From Gammaproteobacteria bacterium (lineage in GTDB: Bacteria; Pseudomonadota; Gammaproteobacteria; GCA-001735895): a stretch of 48,887 nt of DNA. The stretch's first letter is position 1. Each line of letters starts with the position of its first letter. The DNA lies in contig JASJCI010000042.1 in NCBI GenBank assembly GCA_030066085.1, positions 1 through 48,887 of the forward strand. The letters are read 5' to 3'. This document shows positions 840 to 8,304 of this stretch, piece after piece. Made by a program: the position numbers and the translations under genes. The notes under the pieces are model-generated. The model saw only the letters and a program-made list of their open reading frames with translations. It was not told the origin of the DNA and did no database searches.

Positions 840-1627
840 TGGATATGCGTCCCCGAACCGTTCAGTGCGTCGGCCACGGGATGCTCCCCGCGGCCGTCGG
901 CGATGATGATCTTCGTTTTACCGCCCTGGCACAGGCGCGTCAACGCCAGCAGCTTGCGCTTGATCCGGCCCTCGACCGCGGCCTCGCGCGTGGCCAGTTC
1001 GGCGGCGCTCATCTGCGTAACCAGCGAGCCCTCGTCGTCCGGATCGTCGAGGAAGCCGGGCGCTTCGATCAACTGCAGCACCGTGTCGATATCGAGCTCG
1101 GCGGCGAGCTGTGCGACGATATCGTCGTTCTCCGAGTTGATCGCATATCCTTTTTCGTCGACGATCGGAATCGTCAGTACCGGGCAGTAGCCGTTGTCGA
1201 GCAGCAGTTGCAGCAGTGACGCGTTAATCGAACGCGGTTTACCCGACAGGTCGCGCTTGATCAGCGTCTTGCCGTTTTCGCGTACACGAATGCCCTTGTT
1301 GCGCTCGCCCTGCACCAGCCGCCCGTCGAGGCCGGTGAGCCCGATCGCGTTGATATCGCGGCGCTGGCACAGTTCGACGATCTGCTTGTTACGCAGGCCG
1401 GAGTAACTCATCAGGATCACGTCGATCGCGTCCTGGTCGGAGAACACGCTGCTGTAGCCCGACACCGAGGTCAGCACGGTTTTCTCCATGCCGAGGCGCT
1501 CCGCGAGCTGGTCACGCAGCACGTTGGCGCCGTGCACGACGATAAACGGTTGCGCCTGTTCGGCGAGGTCGGCGATCACGGCCGGCAGGTTGATCTGCTC
1601 GCCGCCGCCAATCTTGATCAGCATCAT
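836..1627 (-). CDS. lysZ: LysZ: [LysW]-aminoadipate/glutamate kinase
   Basis: An amino-acid kinase family protein (263 aa) that phosphorylates the side-chain carboxylate of the amino acid held on LysW. It starts MMLIKIGGGEQIN and carries the nucleotide-binding GGG, a VVHGAN loop, GLTGLDGRL, the NSENDDIVA segment and a C-terminal KTKIIIADGR. The block GLTGLDGRL and the short 263-residue length resemble the LysZ branch more than bacterial N-acetylglutamate kinases of about 290-300 aa. The ATG at 1627 is chosen because it gives a four-base ATGA overlap with the upstream amidotransferase gene. It overlaps lysJ in the same way. It is known from the family that LysZ recognises the carrier globule; this protein's exact substrate is inferred. 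Confidence 0.88.
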   Translation of the reverse strand: MMLIKIGGGEQINLPAVIADLAEQAQPFIVVHGANVLRDQLAERLGMEKTVLTSVSGYSSVFSDQDAIDVILMSYSGLRNKQIVELCQRRDINAIGLTGLDGRLVQGERNKGIRVRENGKTLIKRDLSGKPRSINASLLQLLLDNGYCPVLTIPIVDEKGYAINSENDDIVAQLAAELDIDTVLQLIEAPGFLDDPDDEGSLVTQMSAAELATREAAVEGRIKRKLLALTRLCQGGKTKIIIADGRGEHPVADALNGSGTHIQ

Positions 1628-2259
1628 AGTCTTAACGTCGTGTGATTTTCGATGGGTTCCCAGCCGGACGCTGCCGGGAAGGGCTGCGAACAGACCAGCT
1701 GCAGGTCGTCGCCGCGTTTTTGCCACAGCTGGAAGTAGTCCGGGTCCTCGCCGTAGCTGGTCGACAGGATGGATTGCTCGCCGTCGGACAGCACCAGGTT
1801 CATCGCGCGCACGTAGGCGCTGCGCTTGTGGATGATGTCGATCGCCCGGGTGGTCGCCGCCAGCTTGTCGCCACGGTCGAAACGGCGGATGTAGTTGTAG
1901 ATTTTTTCCGCGCCGATACGACCTTCCGAGCGGATGCGTACCCCGCGCAGCTCACCGTTGAAAATGAACATCGAATCACCGTCGGAAAACGGCATGTTGT
2001 TCTCGACCACGATGCCTTCGTCGCGAAAGGCGCTGCGCGCATGGACCAGCAGCAGCGAGGTTCGGCCCGTCGGTCGGTTGTCGTCCTCCCAGATCGGACG
2101 GATGTCATGGTATTGGCGCCAGCCGCCGTTGTCGCGCCAGGCGCAGCCCCAGCCGTGGCCCTGGTACTCGCGGCTGTCACGGGAGATCGCGGCGAAGGGT
2201 TCGAGCAGTTCGCCGATCTCGAACTCGCTGTCGCTGCGCGCGTAGAGAATCCGGCACAC
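1624..2259 (-). CDS. stand-alone class II glutamine amidotransferase (YafJ-like) inside the LysW operon
   Basis: An N-terminal-nucleophile glutaminase-fold protein of 211 aa with no attached synthetase domain. The start is GTG at 2259 and the second residue is the expected nucleophile Cys (MCRILYA). Class II landmarks follow in order: HGWG near residue 35, VHARSAF near 73, NNMPF, FNGELRG near 100, and NLVLSDGEQS then VCSQPF in the C-terminal half. These resemble E. coli YafJ and EgtC-like proteins, which act on gamma-glutamyl amides. It lies seven bases after lysY and overlaps lysZ by ATGA, so it is co-translated with carrier genes. This is not a standard member of described LysW operons. A role in acting on the C-terminal Gln of this operon's LysW is inference; an unrelated glutaminase or gamma-glutamyl hydrolase is possible. 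Confidence 0.85.
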   Translation of the reverse strand: MCRILYARSDSEFEIGELLEPFAAISRDSREYQGHGWGCAWRDNGGWRQYHDIRPIWEDDNRPTGRTSLLLVHARSAFRDEGIVVENNMPFSDGDSMFIFNGELRGVRIRSEGRIGAEKIYNYIRRFDRGDKLAATTRAIDIIHKRSAYVRAMNLVLSDGEQSILSTSYGEDPDYFQLWQKRGDDLQLVCSQPFPAASGWEPIENHTTLRL

Positions 2260-2266
2260 GGCGATA

Positions 2267-3289
2267 TCAGGGGTGCAGGCCGGGGAACTGCAGGCCGGTG
2301 GTCTCGTCGAAACCGCGCGCGAGGTTGAAGGCCTGCACGGCCTGGCCGGCGGCGCCTTTCATCAGGTTGTCGAGCGCGCTGATCACGACCAGGCGGTTCG
2401 ACAGCGGATCGCGTTCGAAGCCGATGTCGCAGTAATTACTGCCGGCGAGTATTTTCGGTTCCGGGTAGCGATGGATGCCGGTACGTTCCTTGACGATGCG
2501 AATGAAGGGTTCGTCGCCATAGGCGCCGCGGTAGAGTTTCCAGATGTCCTTTTCCTCGAGATCCTCCTTGAGGAAAACGTGGCAGGTGGCGAGGATGCCG
2601 CGCACCATTTCGATCGAGGTCGCGGAAAAGTGAATGTTGTTCGCGCCCAGTTCCTGTTCGATTTCGCCGAGGTGGCGATGTGCGGTCGGCTTGTAGGAGC
2701 GGACCGCGCCGCTGCGTTCGGGGTGATGGCTGCCCTCGCTGACCGCGTTGCCACCCTGGCTCGAGCCGGCCTTGACCTCGACCACCGCGGATTCCACCAC
2801 GCCCGCGGCGTACAGCGGGTATAGCGCGAGTATCGTCGCGGTGGCGTTGCAGCCCGCACCCGAGATGCGCTTTGCGCCGCGCATTTGTTCGCGGTGCAGT
2901 TCCGGGATGCCGTAGACGAAATCGGCAAGTCGTTCCGGGCAGGCGTGGTCCTTGCCGTACCAGCGCTGGTAGTGATCGTTGTCGTCGAGCCGGAAATCGG
3001 CCGACAGATCGATCAGGGTGTCCGCCAGCGACTCGAACTCGTCCAGGCGGGTCATCATCTGGCCGTGCGGCAGGCCGAGAAACAGCACGTCGCAGGCTTC
3101 GAGTTCGGCCGCGGGTACAAATTTCAGTTTGCAGATCTTGCGCAGGTTCGGATGTACGCTCGAGACCAGTTTGCCGGCGTGGCGTTCCGACGTGACCTGC
3201 TGCAGTTCGACCTCGGGATGAAACAGCAGCAGGCGCAGCAGGTCGCCGCCGGTGTAACCCGAGGCACCGACGATGGAAACCTTCAGCAT
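2267..3289 (-). CDS. lysY: LysY/ArgC-type acyl-phosphate reductase
   Basis: An NADPH-dependent reductase (340 aa) that turns the carrier-bound acyl phosphate made by LysZ into the semialdehyde. The N-terminal Rossmann motif is [14 protein letters not shown] (residues 8-21). The catalytic Cys is C147 in SGAGCNATA, which differs from the NPGCYPTA seen in many acetylated-pathway ArgC proteins and fits the carrier branch. FLGLPHG and the [18 protein letters not shown] segment follow. The ATG at 3289 overlaps the end of lysX by seven bases. Assignment to the LysW branch rests on the operon; an N-acetylglutamyl-phosphate reductase reading is less likely because lysW and lysX sit directly upstream. 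Confidence 0.9.
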
Positions 3290-4122
3290 GCGCGTGCCCG
3301 CTTGATCACGTAGTCGACCACCACGGCGGGGATATCGATCCCGGTGGTATCGATGCTGTTGCGAAATTCCATCGTGTAGTTGACTTCGTTGACCAGCAGG
3401 CCATCGTCACTCTCGAACAGGTCGACCGCGACAATACCGCCACCGACGGCCGCGGCCGCCGCCAGCGAAATCTCGGCGACCTCGTTGCTGACTTCGCATT
3501 TGCTTGCGACCGCGCCGCGCGCGGTATTCGTGATCCAGTGGTCGGAAGTGCGGTAGATAGCCGCGATACAGTCGTCGCCGACGACGAAGCTGCGAATGTC
3601 GCGGCCCTTTTTCTCGACGTACTGCTGGATATAGAAAATCGAGTGGTGGTAACTGCCGAGCACGGTCTTGTGTTCGAGCACGGTCTCGGCCGCGTCGCGA
3701 TCGTTGATTTTCGACAGCAGCCGACCCCAGGAGCCGACCGCGGGTTTGAGCACCACCGGGTAACCGAGTTCCTCGATCGCGTCCAGCGCCGATTCCTCGG
3801 TAAACGCGACCCGGCAGGCGGGTTGCGCGATGCCGTGATCCTTGAGCGCGGCGGTGGTCAGCAGCTTGTCGCCGCAGATTTGTGCGACCTGGTGCGAATT
3901 GATGCAGGGCACGCCGGCGGATTCGAACAGGCGCAGCGCGTGCAGCGCACGCGAGTGGTTGATCGAGCGTTCCACCAGCACGTCGATTGCGGGCGCGCGG
4001 TCGAAATCCATGATCAGCTTGCGATCGTCGATCATCACCGGCTCGACACCGGCCGCGTGGAAGGCTTCCAGCAGCAGTTTTTCTTCCTTGCGGATCAGCG
4101 AGTGCAGCAGGCCGATTTTCAC
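3283..4122 (-). CDS. lysX: LysX: LysW-amino acid ligase (ATP-grasp)
   Basis: An ATP-grasp ligase of 279 aa that joins the alpha-amino group of aminoadipate or glutamate to the gamma-carboxyl of the C-terminal Glu of LysW, using ATP. It begins at GTG 4122, which overlaps the lysW stop by GTGA; the frame stays open further upstream but that would run into lysW. Visible motifs are [14 protein letters not shown] (nucleotide-binding region), [20 protein letters not shown], and the terminal [14 protein letters not shown] metal and substrate loop followed by [10 protein letters not shown]. These match LysX/ArgX/RimK-type ligases. Its acceptor here has Gln rather than Glu at the C-terminus, so either the carrier is first deamidated or the ligase chemistry differs. 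Confidence 0.92.
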
Positions 4123-4283
4123 TGCCCCCAGTCCTCCTCGGCGGAAGGTGCCTCGGCCAGTTCGACCGGGTCCTTGGACACCAGTTCGAGTTCGGCGCCG
4201 CAGTCGTCGCAAACGATGATTTCACCCGCAATCGCGTCGTCGGCCAGTTCGATTTCGGCCGCGCAGATCGGACATTCACCCAT
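4119..4283 (-). CDS. lysW: LysW amino-group carrier protein with C-terminal Gln
   Basis: A 54-residue acidic carrier protein, too short for many gene finders. It has a Zn-binding CPIC (C4, C7) and CDDC (C25, C28) pair, an acidic middle, and the C-terminal signature EDWGQ. The family's tail is EDWGE, where the gamma-carboxyl of the last Glu (position 54 in Thermus) is bonded to the substrate amino group. Here codon 54 is CAG (Gln), then TGA. The length is exactly that of the Thermus protein. The ATG at 4283 is the first gene of the operon and its stop overlaps lysX by GTGA. A sequencing error changing GAG to CAG cannot be excluded, but the glutaminase-type gene two genes downstream makes a genuine Gln tail plausible. 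Confidence 0.93.
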
Positions 4284-4854: not shown

Positions 4855-4960
4855 AGCCGAAAAAAGTCTTTTAGTCTTGCTGGATTGGCCCGGCGATTTT
4901 ACTGCAGCGCCAGACGCGCTGGTCGGCGGGCCTGCTCAAGAAAAATCAGGAGGGCTTTAC

Positions 4961-5932
4961 ATGACTGTAACAAGAAGAAGTTTACTGTTGGCCGGTTCGG
5001 CGCTGCTGGCGGCCAGCATGCTCACGCCAATCACTGCCTCTGCCAAGGAGAGGGTGGTATTCAGCGGCGGTCCCGCCGGCGGTACTTTCCAGGTGGTTGC
5101 CAACGCGGTACAGGTTTACGATCCGATCAAGCAATCCAAGAATATGCGGGTGCGGGCGCAGTCGTCCGCCGGTTCGGTGGAAAACCTGCGCAAGGTGAAT
5201 TCCGGCAAGGCGCAGATGGGCGTGGTTTATTCCGGCCACGTGTTTCTCGGCCGCAATGGCCAGATGAAAAACGATACCCGTAAGTACGAAGACGTCATGG
5301 CGGTTGCCTGGCTCTACGGCGCGCCCGCGCAGCTGGTAGTGCGCAAGGGCTCGGGTATCAAGAGCACCAAGGACCTCGTCGGCAAGAAAGTCGGGGTTGG
5401 TAACGCCGGATCGGGCGCTTTCGCCAACTGTGAACTGTTTTTTACGCACATGGGCGTGTGGGACAAGATCGAGCGCAACGCGATGGGTTACAACGATGCG
5501 GCCCAGGCTTTCGGCAACAACCAGCTCGATGCCTTCTGGCTGTTCACCGCCTTCCCCAGTGGCGCGGTCATCATGGCGGCGCAGACCAACGATATCGAGC
5601 TGATCGACCTGGGCAAGGATGCGCAGGACAGCGGCTTTTTCGACAAGTATCCGTATTTCGGGCAACTGTCGGTGCCGCCGGGTACCTACAAGGGCGTCGA
5701 TTACGAGACCCCGTCCTTCCAGGACTCCGCCCTGTGGGTGGCGAACTCCAAGGTCTCTGAAGATACAGTGTACGAAATGCTGTCGGCGATCTACAGCGAC
5801 GAGGGACTGGCGCATATGAAAGCCCAGAAGAAAACCTTCAAGAACATGAGTCTCGATACCGGTACCCAGGGGGTCGTCACGCCCTGGCACCCCGGCGCGG
5901 TCAAGTTCTGGAAAGAAAAGGGCATGATGTAA
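4961..5932 (+). CDS. TAXI-family TRAP transporter solute receptor
   Basis: A periplasmic binding protein of 323 aa for a TRAP transporter of the TAXI subfamily. The ATG at 4961 is preceded by a strong AGGAGG seven bases upstream. The N-terminus MTVTRRSLLLAGSALL is a Tat-like signal with a twin arginine, cleaved after an Ala-rich stretch ending near ASAKE. The mature part has GGPAGGTFQVVANAVQ and SSAGSVENLRKVNSGKAQMGVVYSG patterns typical of TAXI receptors. The ligand is not predictable; glutamate/glutamine-like and other carboxylates are known for the family. The fused permease follows after 102 bases. Confidence 0.92.
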   Translation: MTVTRRSLLLAGSALLAASMLTPITASAKERVVFSGGPAGGTFQVVANAVQVYDPIKQSKNMRVRAQSSAGSVENLRKVNSGKAQMGVVYSGHVFLGRNGQMKNDTRKYEDVMAVAWLYGAPAQLVVRKGSGIKSTKDLVGKKVGVGNAGSGAFANCELFFTHMGVWDKIERNAMGYNDAAQAFGNNQLDAFWLFTAFPSGAVIMAAQTNDIELIDLGKDAQDSGFFDKYPYFGQLSVPPGTYKGVDYETPSFQDSALWVANSKVSEDTVYEMLSAIYSDEGLAHMKAQKKTFKNMSLDTGTQGVVTPWHPGAVKFWKEKGMM

Positions 5933-6034
5933 TGTCTGACCGGGGGGCGGAGCCTGTTGCGCCCCCCGACTCCGCGACCGCGGGAAGATAACCCGGGCCG
6001 GAATCCAACCAACAAAACGATTGGGGGCGGGGGC

Positions 6035-7774
6035 ATGCTGTTTGAAAATCTGAACAAGGTCGAGCGCATGGTATTCGATGCGCTCGGCATCGGGCTGGTG
6101 CTGTTTTACTCCTATTCGGCCGTGCTGGAGCCGGCCGCCACCCAGTACCACCGGGGTGTATACGTGGTCATTACCTACGTCCTGGTGCTCATGCTGTACC
6201 GAACCCCCGGCCTGGCGGGTCGGATCTGGGATTATTTCCTGATGGCGATCTCGGTGGGGGCGCTGGGCTACTGGATCCTGAACTTCGAGGCGATCAACTA
6301 TCGCGCCGGCGCGGAAACCGAGCTCGACCAGTGGATCGCCGTGGTCGGGGTGCTGGTCGGTATCGAGATCGCGCGGCGGGTGGTCGGCATGGCCTTCGTG
6401 ATCATCGGCAGCATCATGCTGCTGTACGGCGTGTTCGGCGACAGTGAATTGATCCCCGAGGTGCTGCAGCACGCGGGCGATACCTTCCCCTACCTGTGCA
6501 CCAGCATTTTTTACAAGAGCGACGGGGTGTTCGGCATCATGGCCAACGTACTGGCCACGTACATTATCCTGTTCGTGATTTTCGGCGCCTTTCTCGAAAA
6601 GAGCGGCGCGCAACGGTTCTTTATCGATTTTCCACTGGCCGCCGTCGGTCACAAGGTCGGCGGACCCGGCAAGGTGTCGGTCATCGCCAGCGGCCTGTTC
6701 GGATCGATTTCCGGCTCCGCGATCGCCAACACGGTGTCGACCGGCGCGTTTACCATCCCGATGATGAAAAAGGCCGGCTTTCGCAAGCATGTCGCCGGCG
6801 GCATCGAGCCCGCTGCCTCCATCGGCGGCATGTTCATGCCGCCGATCATGGGCGCCGGCGGTTTCATCATGGCGGAGATGACCGGGCTGCCGTATTCGCA
6901 GATCATGCTGGTGGCGATTTTCCCGGCCCTGATGTACTTCTTCAGCGTGTTCATGATGGTCCACTACGAGGCCAAGAAGTACAACATCGTCGGTGAGAAA
7001 TCCGAGCGCAGCGCGAAAGATATCCTGCGCAAGGAATGGTTTTACGTATTGCCGCTGGTCGTTATCACGATCCTGATGCTGATGGGTTATTCACCGGGTT
7101 ACTCGGCCATCCTCGGCATCGTGACCTGTATCGCGGTCAGCTGGGTGCGCAAGGACACGCGTATCGAAGTCAGGCGTTTTGCCGAGGCGTCGCGCGCCGG
7201 CGCGGAGGCCAGTCTCAAGATCGGCGCCACGGTCGGTGTCATCGGCATCATCATCGGCGTGTTGACCTACAGCGGCCTGATCCTGACCTTCGCCGACATC
7301 GTGATCGAACTGGCCGAGGGCCGCCTGTGGCTGACCATCCTGTTCATTGCGCTGGCCTCGCTGATCCTCGGTATGGGTGTGCCGGTGACCGCGGCCTACC
7401 TGATTACCGCCGTGGTCGCGGTGCCGGCGCTGACCCATCTCGGGGTCAACGAACTGGCGGCCCACATGATCGTCTACTGGCTGTCGCAGGATTCCAACAT
7501 CACGCCGCCGGTCTGCATCGCCGCGTTCGCCGGGGCCACGATCGCCAAGGCCAATATGTGGGCAACCGCCTGGATCGCGTTCAAGTTCGCCAAGTTCCTG
7601 TACCTGGCGCCGTTCATATTCGGCTACGTGCCGGCATTTTCGCTGGACGGTACGGCGACGGATATCGCGATCACCTTCGTGCTCGTGTTTTTCGGAACCT
7701 GGGCCTACAGCTGGTTCCTGAGTGGAATCTGGATGAAGCGCAAGCCCGAGGCCGCGATGGAGGAGCAAAACTGA
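6035..7774 (+). CDS. TRAP transporter fused permease (DctQM type)
   Basis: An inner-membrane protein of 579 aa combining the small four-helix and large twelve-helix TRAP permease subunits, the usual arrangement in TAXI systems. The chosen start MLFENLNKVERMVFDALG at 6035 follows a GGGGGCGGGGG purine run; an upstream in-frame extension is Pro/Arg-rich and not membrane-like. The N-terminal helices span roughly residues 20-150. The DctM part shows GLFGSISGSAIANTVSTGAFTIP, EPAASIGGMFMPPIMGAGGF and GMGVPVTAAYL, the conserved TRAP-M loops. It uses an ion gradient to move the solute delivered by the upstream receptor. It ends in a TGATG overlap with a UspA gene. Confidence 0.93.
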   Translation: MLFENLNKVERMVFDALGIGLVLFYSYSAVLEPAATQYHRGVYVVITYVLVLMLYRTPGLAGRIWDYFLMAISVGALGYWILNFEAINYRAGAETELDQWIAVVGVLVGIEIARRVVGMAFVIIGSIMLLYGVFGDSELIPEVLQHAGDTFPYLCTSIFYKSDGVFGIMANVLATYIILFVIFGAFLEKSGAQRFFIDFPLAAVGHKVGGPGKVSVIASGLFGSISGSAIANTVSTGAFTIPMMKKAGFRKHVAGGIEPAASIGGMFMPPIMGAGGFIMAEMTGLPYSQIMLVAIFPALMYFFSVFMMVHYEAKKYNIVGEKSERSAKDILRKEWFYVLPLVVITILMLMGYSPGYSAILGIVTCIAVSWVRKDTRIEVRRFAEASRAGAEASLKIGATVGVIGIIIGVLTYSGLILTFADIVIELAEGRLWLTILFIALASLILGMGVPVTAAYLITAVVAVPALTHLGVNELAAHMIVYWLSQDSNITPPVCIAAFAGATIAKANMWATAWIAFKFAKFLYLAPFIFGYVPAFSLDGTATDIAITFVLVFFGTWAYSWFLSGIWMKRKPEAAMEEQN

Positions 7775-8304
7775 TGCCGGAGAAGAACGCGCTACCCCCG
7801 ATCGAGTATCGCCGGATACTGTACGTGACCGATTTGTCGGAATCCGGGCGCCAGGCGTTTCCGCATGCGGTTGCCATCGCGTTGCGCAACGATGCCCACC
7901 TGACCGTGTTTCACGTGGTCGATAATCGTGACCTGCAGAGTCTCGAGGGATACATGAGTGACGAGCTGTGGGCGGAGCTGACGAGCAGGAACCTCGACGA
8001 TGCCCGCGATATCCTGCTGCATCGCCGCCGTGATGAGCTTGCGATCAGCAACGTGGAAGCGTTTTGCAAGGAGTGCCTGGTAGACCAGCCCGATCAACCC
8101 CTGCTGAGTTACGAAATCAAGGTCGAAACGGGCGAACGACTGGAAAGTATCCTGGCCGAGGCGCACGATGGTGCCTACGATTTGCTGATCGTCAGCAAAC
8201 ACGGTAACCGGGTATCGGTAAAAGACGCGGTCATGGGCGATACGACCCGGCGTATCCTGCGGCGCTGTCGTATACCCGTGCTGGTGATACCGCTCGAAGA
8301 GTAG
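7774..8304 (+). CDS. UspA-domain protein linked to the TRAP transporter (TeaD-like)
   Basis: A single universal-stress-protein domain of 176 aa, starting in the TGATG overlap with the permease stop. It has the N-terminal ILYVTDLSE strand and nucleotide-pocket Asp, and the C-terminal VSKHGNRVSV..DTTRRILRRCRIPVLVIP, close to the G-2x-G-9x-G ATP motif in spirit. UspA proteins encoded directly after TRAP permeases (TeaD of Halomonas) modulate transporter activity by binding ATP; a similar role is inferred here from translational coupling. Confidence 0.88.
   Translation: MPEKNALPPIEYRRILYVTDLSESGRQAFPHAVAIALRNDAHLTVFHVVDNRDLQSLEGYMSDELWAELTSRNLDDARDILLHRRRDELAISNVEAFCKECLVDQPDQPLLSYEIKVETGERLESILAEAHDGAYDLLIVSKHGNRVSVKDAVMGDTTRRILRRCRIPVLVIPLEE

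Follow-up and report, generated by a model that had tools for sequence, protein, structure and literature searches.

The contig JASJCI010000042.1 of a gammaproteobacterial genome (assembly GCA_030066085.1), of which positions 1 to 48,887 form the window analysed here, carries an operon for LysW-mediated biosynthesis with an additional gene at 1624–2259 on the minus strand. This gene encodes a putative LysW C-terminal gamma-amide hydrolase, a stand-alone class II (N-terminal nucleophile, Ntn) enzyme of 211 amino acids with a GTG start codon, hereafter called GAT. We consider it likely, with room for serious doubt, that GAT replaces the [LysW]-lysine hydrolase LysK by hydrolysing the gamma-glutamyl amide between product and carrier, and that the encoded Gln54 of the carrier is deamidated in the same manner. 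GAT belongs to an unnamed family of Ntn hydrolases with the fold of EgtC, a constant component of one LysW operon type. This type is probably a variant of the LysW pathway with a new release-and-maturation enzyme.

The distribution of GAT and LysK among genomes that possess LysW carries this interpretation. LysW was sampled in Bacteroidota (198 genomes), Acidobacteriota (179), Gemmatimonadota (121) and Gammaproteobacteria (274), and 98 regions (L256–L353) were fetched from the LysW matches. Forty-eight of these regions, with no EDWG-type tail and no LysX, were dropped; the other 50 contained true LysW genes, one per genome. Left out of this sample were eight genomes already known to hold GAT (G000, G003, G082, G085, G088, G090, G094 and G095), G463 (47.1 bits), second copies in G362, G366, G371, G407 and G467, low matches over the cut-off in G316, G416, G475, G532, G555 and G556, and all matches below the cut-off. 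A search of the 50 whole genomes revealed 33 with GAT and no LysK, 15 with LysK and no GAT, two with neither and none with both. The eight known holders all have GAT and no LysK over the cut-off, and with them the counts become 41 GAT, 15 LysK, two neither and none both. Consistently, the LysK family cut-off of 163.1 bits was reached in none of 49 genomes chosen for GAT, two of which also belong to the 50-genome sample (best match 97.1 bits); it was exceeded in four of 14 control genomes (Thermus, Deinobacterium, Haloferax and Sulfolobus). A scan of 84,980 species genomes with a profile of the window's genus yielded 101 relatives of GAT, the best 80 of which were kept as a first locus set. No LysK-like gene was found at an E-value of 1e-8 in these 80 loci, and a smaller LysK search gave a 32-bit match in locus L120.

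In LysK-type operons the slot of LysK lies after LysJ; a Deinococcus plasmid operon, for example, has the order LysW-LysX-LysY-LysZ-LysJ, ends with a gene annotated as [LysW]-lysine hydrolase and contains no GAT. Locus L307 (G364, Acidobacteriota) carries a divergent GAT copy after LysJ, where LysK would sit. As this gene is partly masked, nothing rests on it here beyond its place in the count. Because GAT and LysK exclude each other, product release, which the initial annotation had listed among the alternatives, has become the best-supported role, and it is from this exclusion that we infer a LysK-type hydrolysis of the LysW-gamma-product bond by GAT.

The gene itself is real and not a chance reading frame, since it is conserved across the genus without internal stops. 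It occurs in 21 of 31 genus genomes (G000–G030, the window's own included), and the 20 other copies share 67–76% identity over the matched part. LysW was found in 20 of these genomes and together with GAT in 19; the mismatches (two with GAT only, one with LysW only) all break at contig ends. Beyond the genus, LysW operons from eight or more phyla, as judged by record titles, contain a member of the family. By the same criterion, the relatives come from Gammaproteobacteria, Acidobacteria, Gemmatimonadota, Bacteroidetes/Ignavibacteria, Calditrichota and KSB1, with single members from Phycisphaerales, Desulfobacterales, ‘Deltaproteobacteria’ and a Spirochaetia bacterium; a search of viral contigs gave no relative. 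A LysW check of 20 genomes was positive in 13, and in six of the others the GAT contig begins inside the operon or just before LysX; the remaining one, L120, is considered below. The open-licence literature yielded no paper that combines LysW with ‘glutamine amidotransferase’ and, by titles and abstract openings, none on such an enzyme.

Across the relatives the usual order is LysW-LysX-LysY-GAT-LysZ-LysJ, and GAT lies no more than 200 bases from LysZ in 67 of 68 measured junctions. Twenty-three junctions are 4-base overlaps and 36 range from a 3-base overlap to a 60-base gap, while seven overlap by 7 or 10 bases, one measures 61–200 bases and one more than 200. In four genomes (two of them KSB1) the cluster is split, with LysW, a homocitrate-synthase-like gene and LysX apart from GAT-LysZ-LysJ (L090, L092, L101 and L112 with L366, L367, L368 and L372). 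As these splits leave GAT beside LysZ and LysJ, it keeps company with the late genes of the pathway.

Another form of release or editing would be conceivable, with GAT as a proofreading hydrolase for misloaded carrier or as an enzyme for a special product, and with release by another protein. In the window's genus, some observations are compatible with this. LysA exceeded its family cut-off in 29 of the 31 genomes (exceptions are G010, with the LysW operon, and G021, without it) and ArgB in 30. The loss of one canonical lysine or arginine pathway, which had been expected, is ruled out by these counts. Since almost every genus genome retains both genes, irrespective of the LysW operon, the latter looks accessory in the genus, and its product may be lysine, ornithine or another compound. 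The signature region of the window LysX, EFRNS, is like that of T. thermophilus LysX, so that, judged by sequence, the genus probably uses the route from aminoadipate to lysine. The surroundings of the operon in the gammaproteobacterial members of the 80-locus set revealed no homocitrate synthase, a negative result that concerns these loci only. In Bacteroidota, Calditrichota and some Acidobacteriota, however, operons of the same arrangement with GAT also include a homocitrate-synthase-like gene, as would be expected for the ordinary aminoadipate route; the term ‘like’ is used because the gene of L126 reaches 330.9 against a cut-off of 413.55. Together with the lack of LysK-like genes in the 80 loci, this makes an editing or special-product function unlikely.

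The carrier tails provide further, though weaker, evidence. LysW of the window (4119–4283, minus strand; 54 amino acids) scores 66.3 bits against the TIGR01206 cut-off of 53.2 and, as had been noted before, ends in Gln54; the tail reads EEDWGQ, with CAG (4122–4124, minus strand) as the terminal codon. It thus departs from the C-terminal Glu of the EDWGE motif, which, according to passages of PMC10433800, characterises the carriers of T. thermophilus, S. acidocaldarius, T. kodakarensis and N. gari. The same passages state that the GSWGR motif of LysX recognises EDWGE and that an E54A exchange in a haloarchaeal carrier leads to arginine auxotrophy. All 20 genus tails (19 loci and the window) read EEDWGQ. 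Altogether 115 tails were read, all of them DWGx, with Glu in 83 and Gln in 32. At least four genomes, all Glu-tailed, occur in both locus sets (L085/L353, L088/L352, L114/L326 and L123/L328). Among loci with LysX and a complete, unbroken LysW, no tail other than Glu or Gln was detected; the LysW gene of L116 is frameshifted. As a side result, 48 of the 98 fetched regions contained PF21344 matches over the cut-off that have acid-rich tails and are not accompanied by LysX, for example L272, L281 and L302 (Acidobacteriota) and L339 (Gemmatimonadota). These zinc ribbons possibly form a family of their own, which would be picked up in LysW annotation.

As the 80-locus set was found via GAT itself, its tails cannot reveal whether Gln occurs without GAT. 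In the 50-genome sample, Gln tails were present in eight of 33 GAT genomes and in none of 15 LysK genomes (two-sided Fisher test with kinship ignored, p = 0.044), and with the eight known holders added they amount to ten of 41. All eight Gln-tailed carriers of the sample are therefore in GAT genomes, which agrees with the expectation of the initial annotation that the gene would not be missing beside most EDWGQ carriers. We further inferred a quick LysX tree of 104 rows, comprising the window, four of the 18 genus loci of the 80-locus set and every other locus whose LysX match spans 180 residues or more; where a locus was truncated, its GAT label was taken from the search of the whole genome. 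Twelve changes between Glu and Gln map onto this tree, all in its GAT part. The LysK part makes up 25.6% of the tree length, which gives a probability of 0.029 for none of 12 changes falling there, provided that rates are equal and the quick tree is correct. Since all Gln tails of the sample are in GAT genomes and every tail is either Glu or Gln, GAT probably also deamidates Gln54, as Dop does with Pup. LysX-type ligation requires a gamma-carboxylate, so a Gln carrier must first be deamidated, and GAT is the obvious candidate for this step.

From here it could be argued that GAT is a dedicated pro-carrier deamidase, converting Gln54 to Glu54 before loading and nothing else, with release by an unlinked M20 peptidase. 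The confinement of Gln tails to GAT-type genomes would fit, as would the LysX enzymes of Gln-tail operons, which need a free gamma-carboxylate and keep GSWGR (in all 104 rows, including 21 of 21 Gln-tail rows checked). The counts beside GAT speak against it. Readable tails at 92 GAT loci comprise 63 EDWGE and 29 EDWGQ, with at least four Glu-tailed genomes counted twice. A deamidase would thus be without work in most hosts, yet GAT is kept beside Glu tails with invariant active-site residues. Gln54 deamidation as the sole role was rejected on this basis. Nor would a deamidase explain the absence of LysK, and in the four split-cluster genomes GAT stays with LysZ-LysJ and LysW is found elsewhere with LysX. 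We therefore regard this explanation as improbable. The initial annotation had seen the conversion of Gln54 to Glu54 as the simplest function of the gene and had named an equal occurrence beside EDWGE carriers as an observation that would speak against it, and the tail counts show the gene beside EDWGE carriers even more often. The idea of carrier-tail processing is retained, as it is very likely that GAT acts on the C-terminal residue of the carrier, whereas Gln54 conversion as the reason for its existence is not supported by the tail counts.

The predicted structure is consistent with a hydrolase for which LysK replacement would be a suitable role. The AF2 model of GAT, based on a 45-sequence alignment, reached a mean predicted local distance difference test score of 90.2 and a predicted template modelling score of 0.89 and shows a predicted alpha-beta-beta-alpha Ntn fold. 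Foldseek and VIA-align identified EgtC as the top match (Z 25.1, root mean square deviation 1.9, 198 residues aligned, 20% identity), followed by GlmS (Z 21.3) and PurF (Z 20.5). The 211 amino acids correspond to one Ntn fold and leave no synthetase domain, as had been proposed. By sequence, however, the protein is not an EgtC. Against the EgtC model TIGR03442, with a cut-off of 218.65 bits, the window protein scores 44.9 bits and four other members 39.7–50.3 bits; in Pfam it lies below the GATase_6 cut-off (17.1 versus 27 bits), and weak matches at an E-value of 0.01 were obtained for 34 of 45 members with GATase_6 and for 32 with GATase_4. No M20 match to the window protein was found in Pfam or NCBIfam.

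The protein begins with V/M-C-R (GTG-Cys-Arg), and its N-terminal nucleophile Cys2 (codon 2254–2256, minus strand) is present in 81 of 81 rows of the alignment not trimmed at the Cys motif and in 110 of 110 rows of the trimmed one. Arg75, Asn101 and Gly102 are likewise invariant in 110 rows. We take Asn-Gly to form the oxyanion hole and Arg to bind the substrate carboxylate, with roles transferred from GlmS and PurF. Of the class II motifs to which the initial annotation had pointed, Cys2 thus holds, and the others are altered. Phe100-Asn101-Gly102 (1954–1962, minus strand) replaces the usual His-Asn-Gly, with Phe in all 110 rows. Where GlmS, PurF, YafJ and EgtC have the Asp of their D-[ST]-[EA] motif, GAT has Gly116 (codon 1912–1914, minus strand), in all 109 rows with a residue at this position. 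The placement of Gly116 is carried by the multiple alignment and by a profile alignment to YafJ; with GlmS and PurF on their own the profile alignment failed, and with EgtC it was shifted there.

In GlmS (Asp123) and PurF (Asp127), this Asp binds the free alpha-amine of glutamine. GAT lacks this feature of class II amidotransferases that act on free glutamine. The loss of the Asp together with the retention of the carboxylate-binding Arg would suit a residue at the C-terminus, with a free alpha-carboxylate and an amine that is engaged in a peptide bond. From the alignment, the last residue of LysW would match the site of GAT in both respects. These features also bear on the possibility of a free-glutamine glutaminase that provides the pathway with ammonia or, for LysJ or LysX, with glutamate. 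The class II glutaminase fold and the use of glutamate by the operon are compatible with it, but the replacement of the substrate-amine Asp by Gly and of His-Asn-Gly by Phe-Asn-Gly speaks against it, and the exclusion of LysK would remain unexplained. We also know of no ammonia-requiring step in the LysW pathway. A glutaminase function thus appears as doubtful as that of a dedicated deamidase. Still less credible is a direct exchange of the Gln54 amide for the substrate amino group, which the initial annotation had also considered: Ntn thioester enzymes can transfer acyl groups to amines and an encoded Gln would be the activated form for such an ATP-free loading, but LysX with GSWGR is kept in the Gln-tail rows and most carriers have no Gln.

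If GAT replaces LysK, the pathway might proceed as follows. LysX would attach the substrate through its amino group to the Glu54 gamma-carboxyl, and the bound molecule would be converted by LysZ, LysY and LysJ. GAT would then cut the gamma-glutamyl amide via a Cys2 thioester, giving free product and carrier, which is the step of LysK in Thermus-type pathways. With a Gln54-encoded carrier, the same reaction on the side-chain amide would generate the Glu54 that LysX needs. Both catalytic activities of GAT are inferred.

Several observations weigh against this interpretation. One of the 33 GAT genomes (G364) is counted on the basis of the divergent, partly masked copy, and in two LysW genomes both release genes are missing. 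On the LysX tree, GAT and LysK change place only once, so that their exclusion represents one deep split maintained across many phyla rather than repeated independent replacement; moreover, the LysK side is narrow, with 14 Acidobacteriota, seven of them in one tight clade, and one Gemmatimonadota. All 49 genomes chosen for GAT hold weaker LysK-family matches, i.e. other M20-like proteins, one of which could act as LysK, and it is possible that GAT has another function, with release by a distant M20 protein. The neglect of kinship in the Fisher test and the presumption of equal rates on a quick tree also reduce the weight of the tail statistics. In L120 (Desulfobacterales, CP070746.1), GAT-LysZ-LysJ is present and no LysW was found in the genome of 7.0 Mb. 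Finally, the substrate of EgtC is a small molecule with a free alpha-amine, and by this analogy a peptide-bound substrate would be one step beyond the precedent.

In the window, the operon runs on the minus strand in the order LysW-LysX-LysY-GAT-LysZ-LysJ, and the LysW zinc ribbon, LysX with GSWGR, LysY, LysZ and LysJ mark it as a LysW-mediated biosynthesis operon. LysX, the ATP-grasp ligase that loads the carrier and contains the GSWGR motif, is encoded at 3283–4122, the LysY/ArgC-type reductase at 2267–3289, the [LysW]-aminoadipate kinase LysZ at 836–1627 and the LysJ/ArgD-type aminotransferase, cut by the contig end, at 3–839. The position of the stand-alone gene between lysY and lysZ was confirmed, as was its coupling to lysZ, since its TGA stop codon and the ATG of lysZ overlap as ATGA. 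The overlap of lysW and lysX, GTGA, consists of the last base of the Gln54 codon CAG and the TGA stop. A Glu codon GAG would give the identical GTGA, so this overlap does not force Gln.

Upstream of lysW, at a distance of 157 bases and on the same strand, the window encodes a protein with two CDGSH iron-sulphur domains (PF09360; 4441–4710, minus strand). Relatives were detected in 13 of 20 fetched genus loci, approximately 0.6 kb upstream of lysW in L052; among the 80 best family loci they were found in 11 genus loci only. Divergently oriented genes at 4955–8304 (plus strand) code for an NMT1-like (TAXI-type) solute-binding protein, a large membrane protein and a universal stress protein. By appearance only, as no search was made, the large membrane protein resembles a fused TRAP permease. 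On a Thermomicrobium roseum plasmid (L355, 5688–6864), lysX follows a small hypothetical gene, and none of lysY, lysZ, lysJ and lysK is annotated within the 12.8 kb examined.

Among described systems, the Thermus-type LysW/aminoadipate pathway shares with the window the operon of LysW, LysX (GSWGR), LysY, LysZ and LysJ. In the GAT type LysK would be replaced, the tail may be Gln and the hosts include a gammaproteobacterium. For LysK (TIGR01902) the reaction is the same as that proposed for GAT, the cleavage of the gamma-glutamyl bond between carrier and product, but as an M20 metallopeptidase it is unrelated to the Ntn hydrolase in fold and chemistry. If our interpretation holds, GAT would fill the missing release step of LysWXYZJ bacteria without LysK in many phyla, and a metallopeptidase would have been replaced by a thiol Ntn hydrolase. 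For the Caldithrix abyssi genome, passages of PMC5317091 describe LysWXZYJ and Hcs in one locus without naming LysK and state that the specificities of other genes need further analysis.

EgtC, the gamma-glutamyl hercynylcysteine sulfoxide amidohydrolase (TIGR03442; PDB 4zfj, 4zfk and 4zfl), is the best fold match and likewise a stand-alone Ntn hydrolase of similar length. It shares the nucleophile Cys2 (one PDB variant is named C2A) and, as described in part of PMC9103826, hydrolyses a gamma-glutamyl amide and thereby removes the gamma-glutamyl group. It differs from GAT in having only about 20% identity, an Asp in place of Gly116 and a location in the ergothioneine cluster. YafJ and similar stand-alone class II amidotransferases (GATase_4, GATase_6) match weakly in sequence, and the Asp of YafJ is Gly in GAT.

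The likeness to Dop is one of logic only: a single enzyme would perform two equivalent cleavages, both at the gamma-carboxyl of the last residue. Hosts with Glu-tailed Pup still keep Dop, for cleavage. According to passages of PMC8223512, Pup is conjugated via the gamma-carboxylate of a Glu at its C-terminus, Gln is encoded instead in mycobacteria and others, and Dop both deamidates Gln-tailed Pup and cleaves the Pup-target bond, two chemically equivalent cuts. Differences are that Dop is related to PafA and glutamine-synthetase-type ligases (same passages), whereas GAT has the Ntn fold, and that Pup is a protein tag and LysW an amino acid carrier. We tentatively propose, at slightly less than an even chance, that GAT represents an independently evolved Dop-like system, in which one Ntn hydrolase matures the Gln-tailed carrier and unloads the amino acid via the same gamma-amide. 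Glu and Gln tails would then be interchangeable, and Gln tails would arise repeatedly, only in GAT lineages. The principle of Pup and Dop, with an amidase that makes no distinction between a gamma-linked cargo and a Gln at the C-terminus, would in that case have evolved twice.

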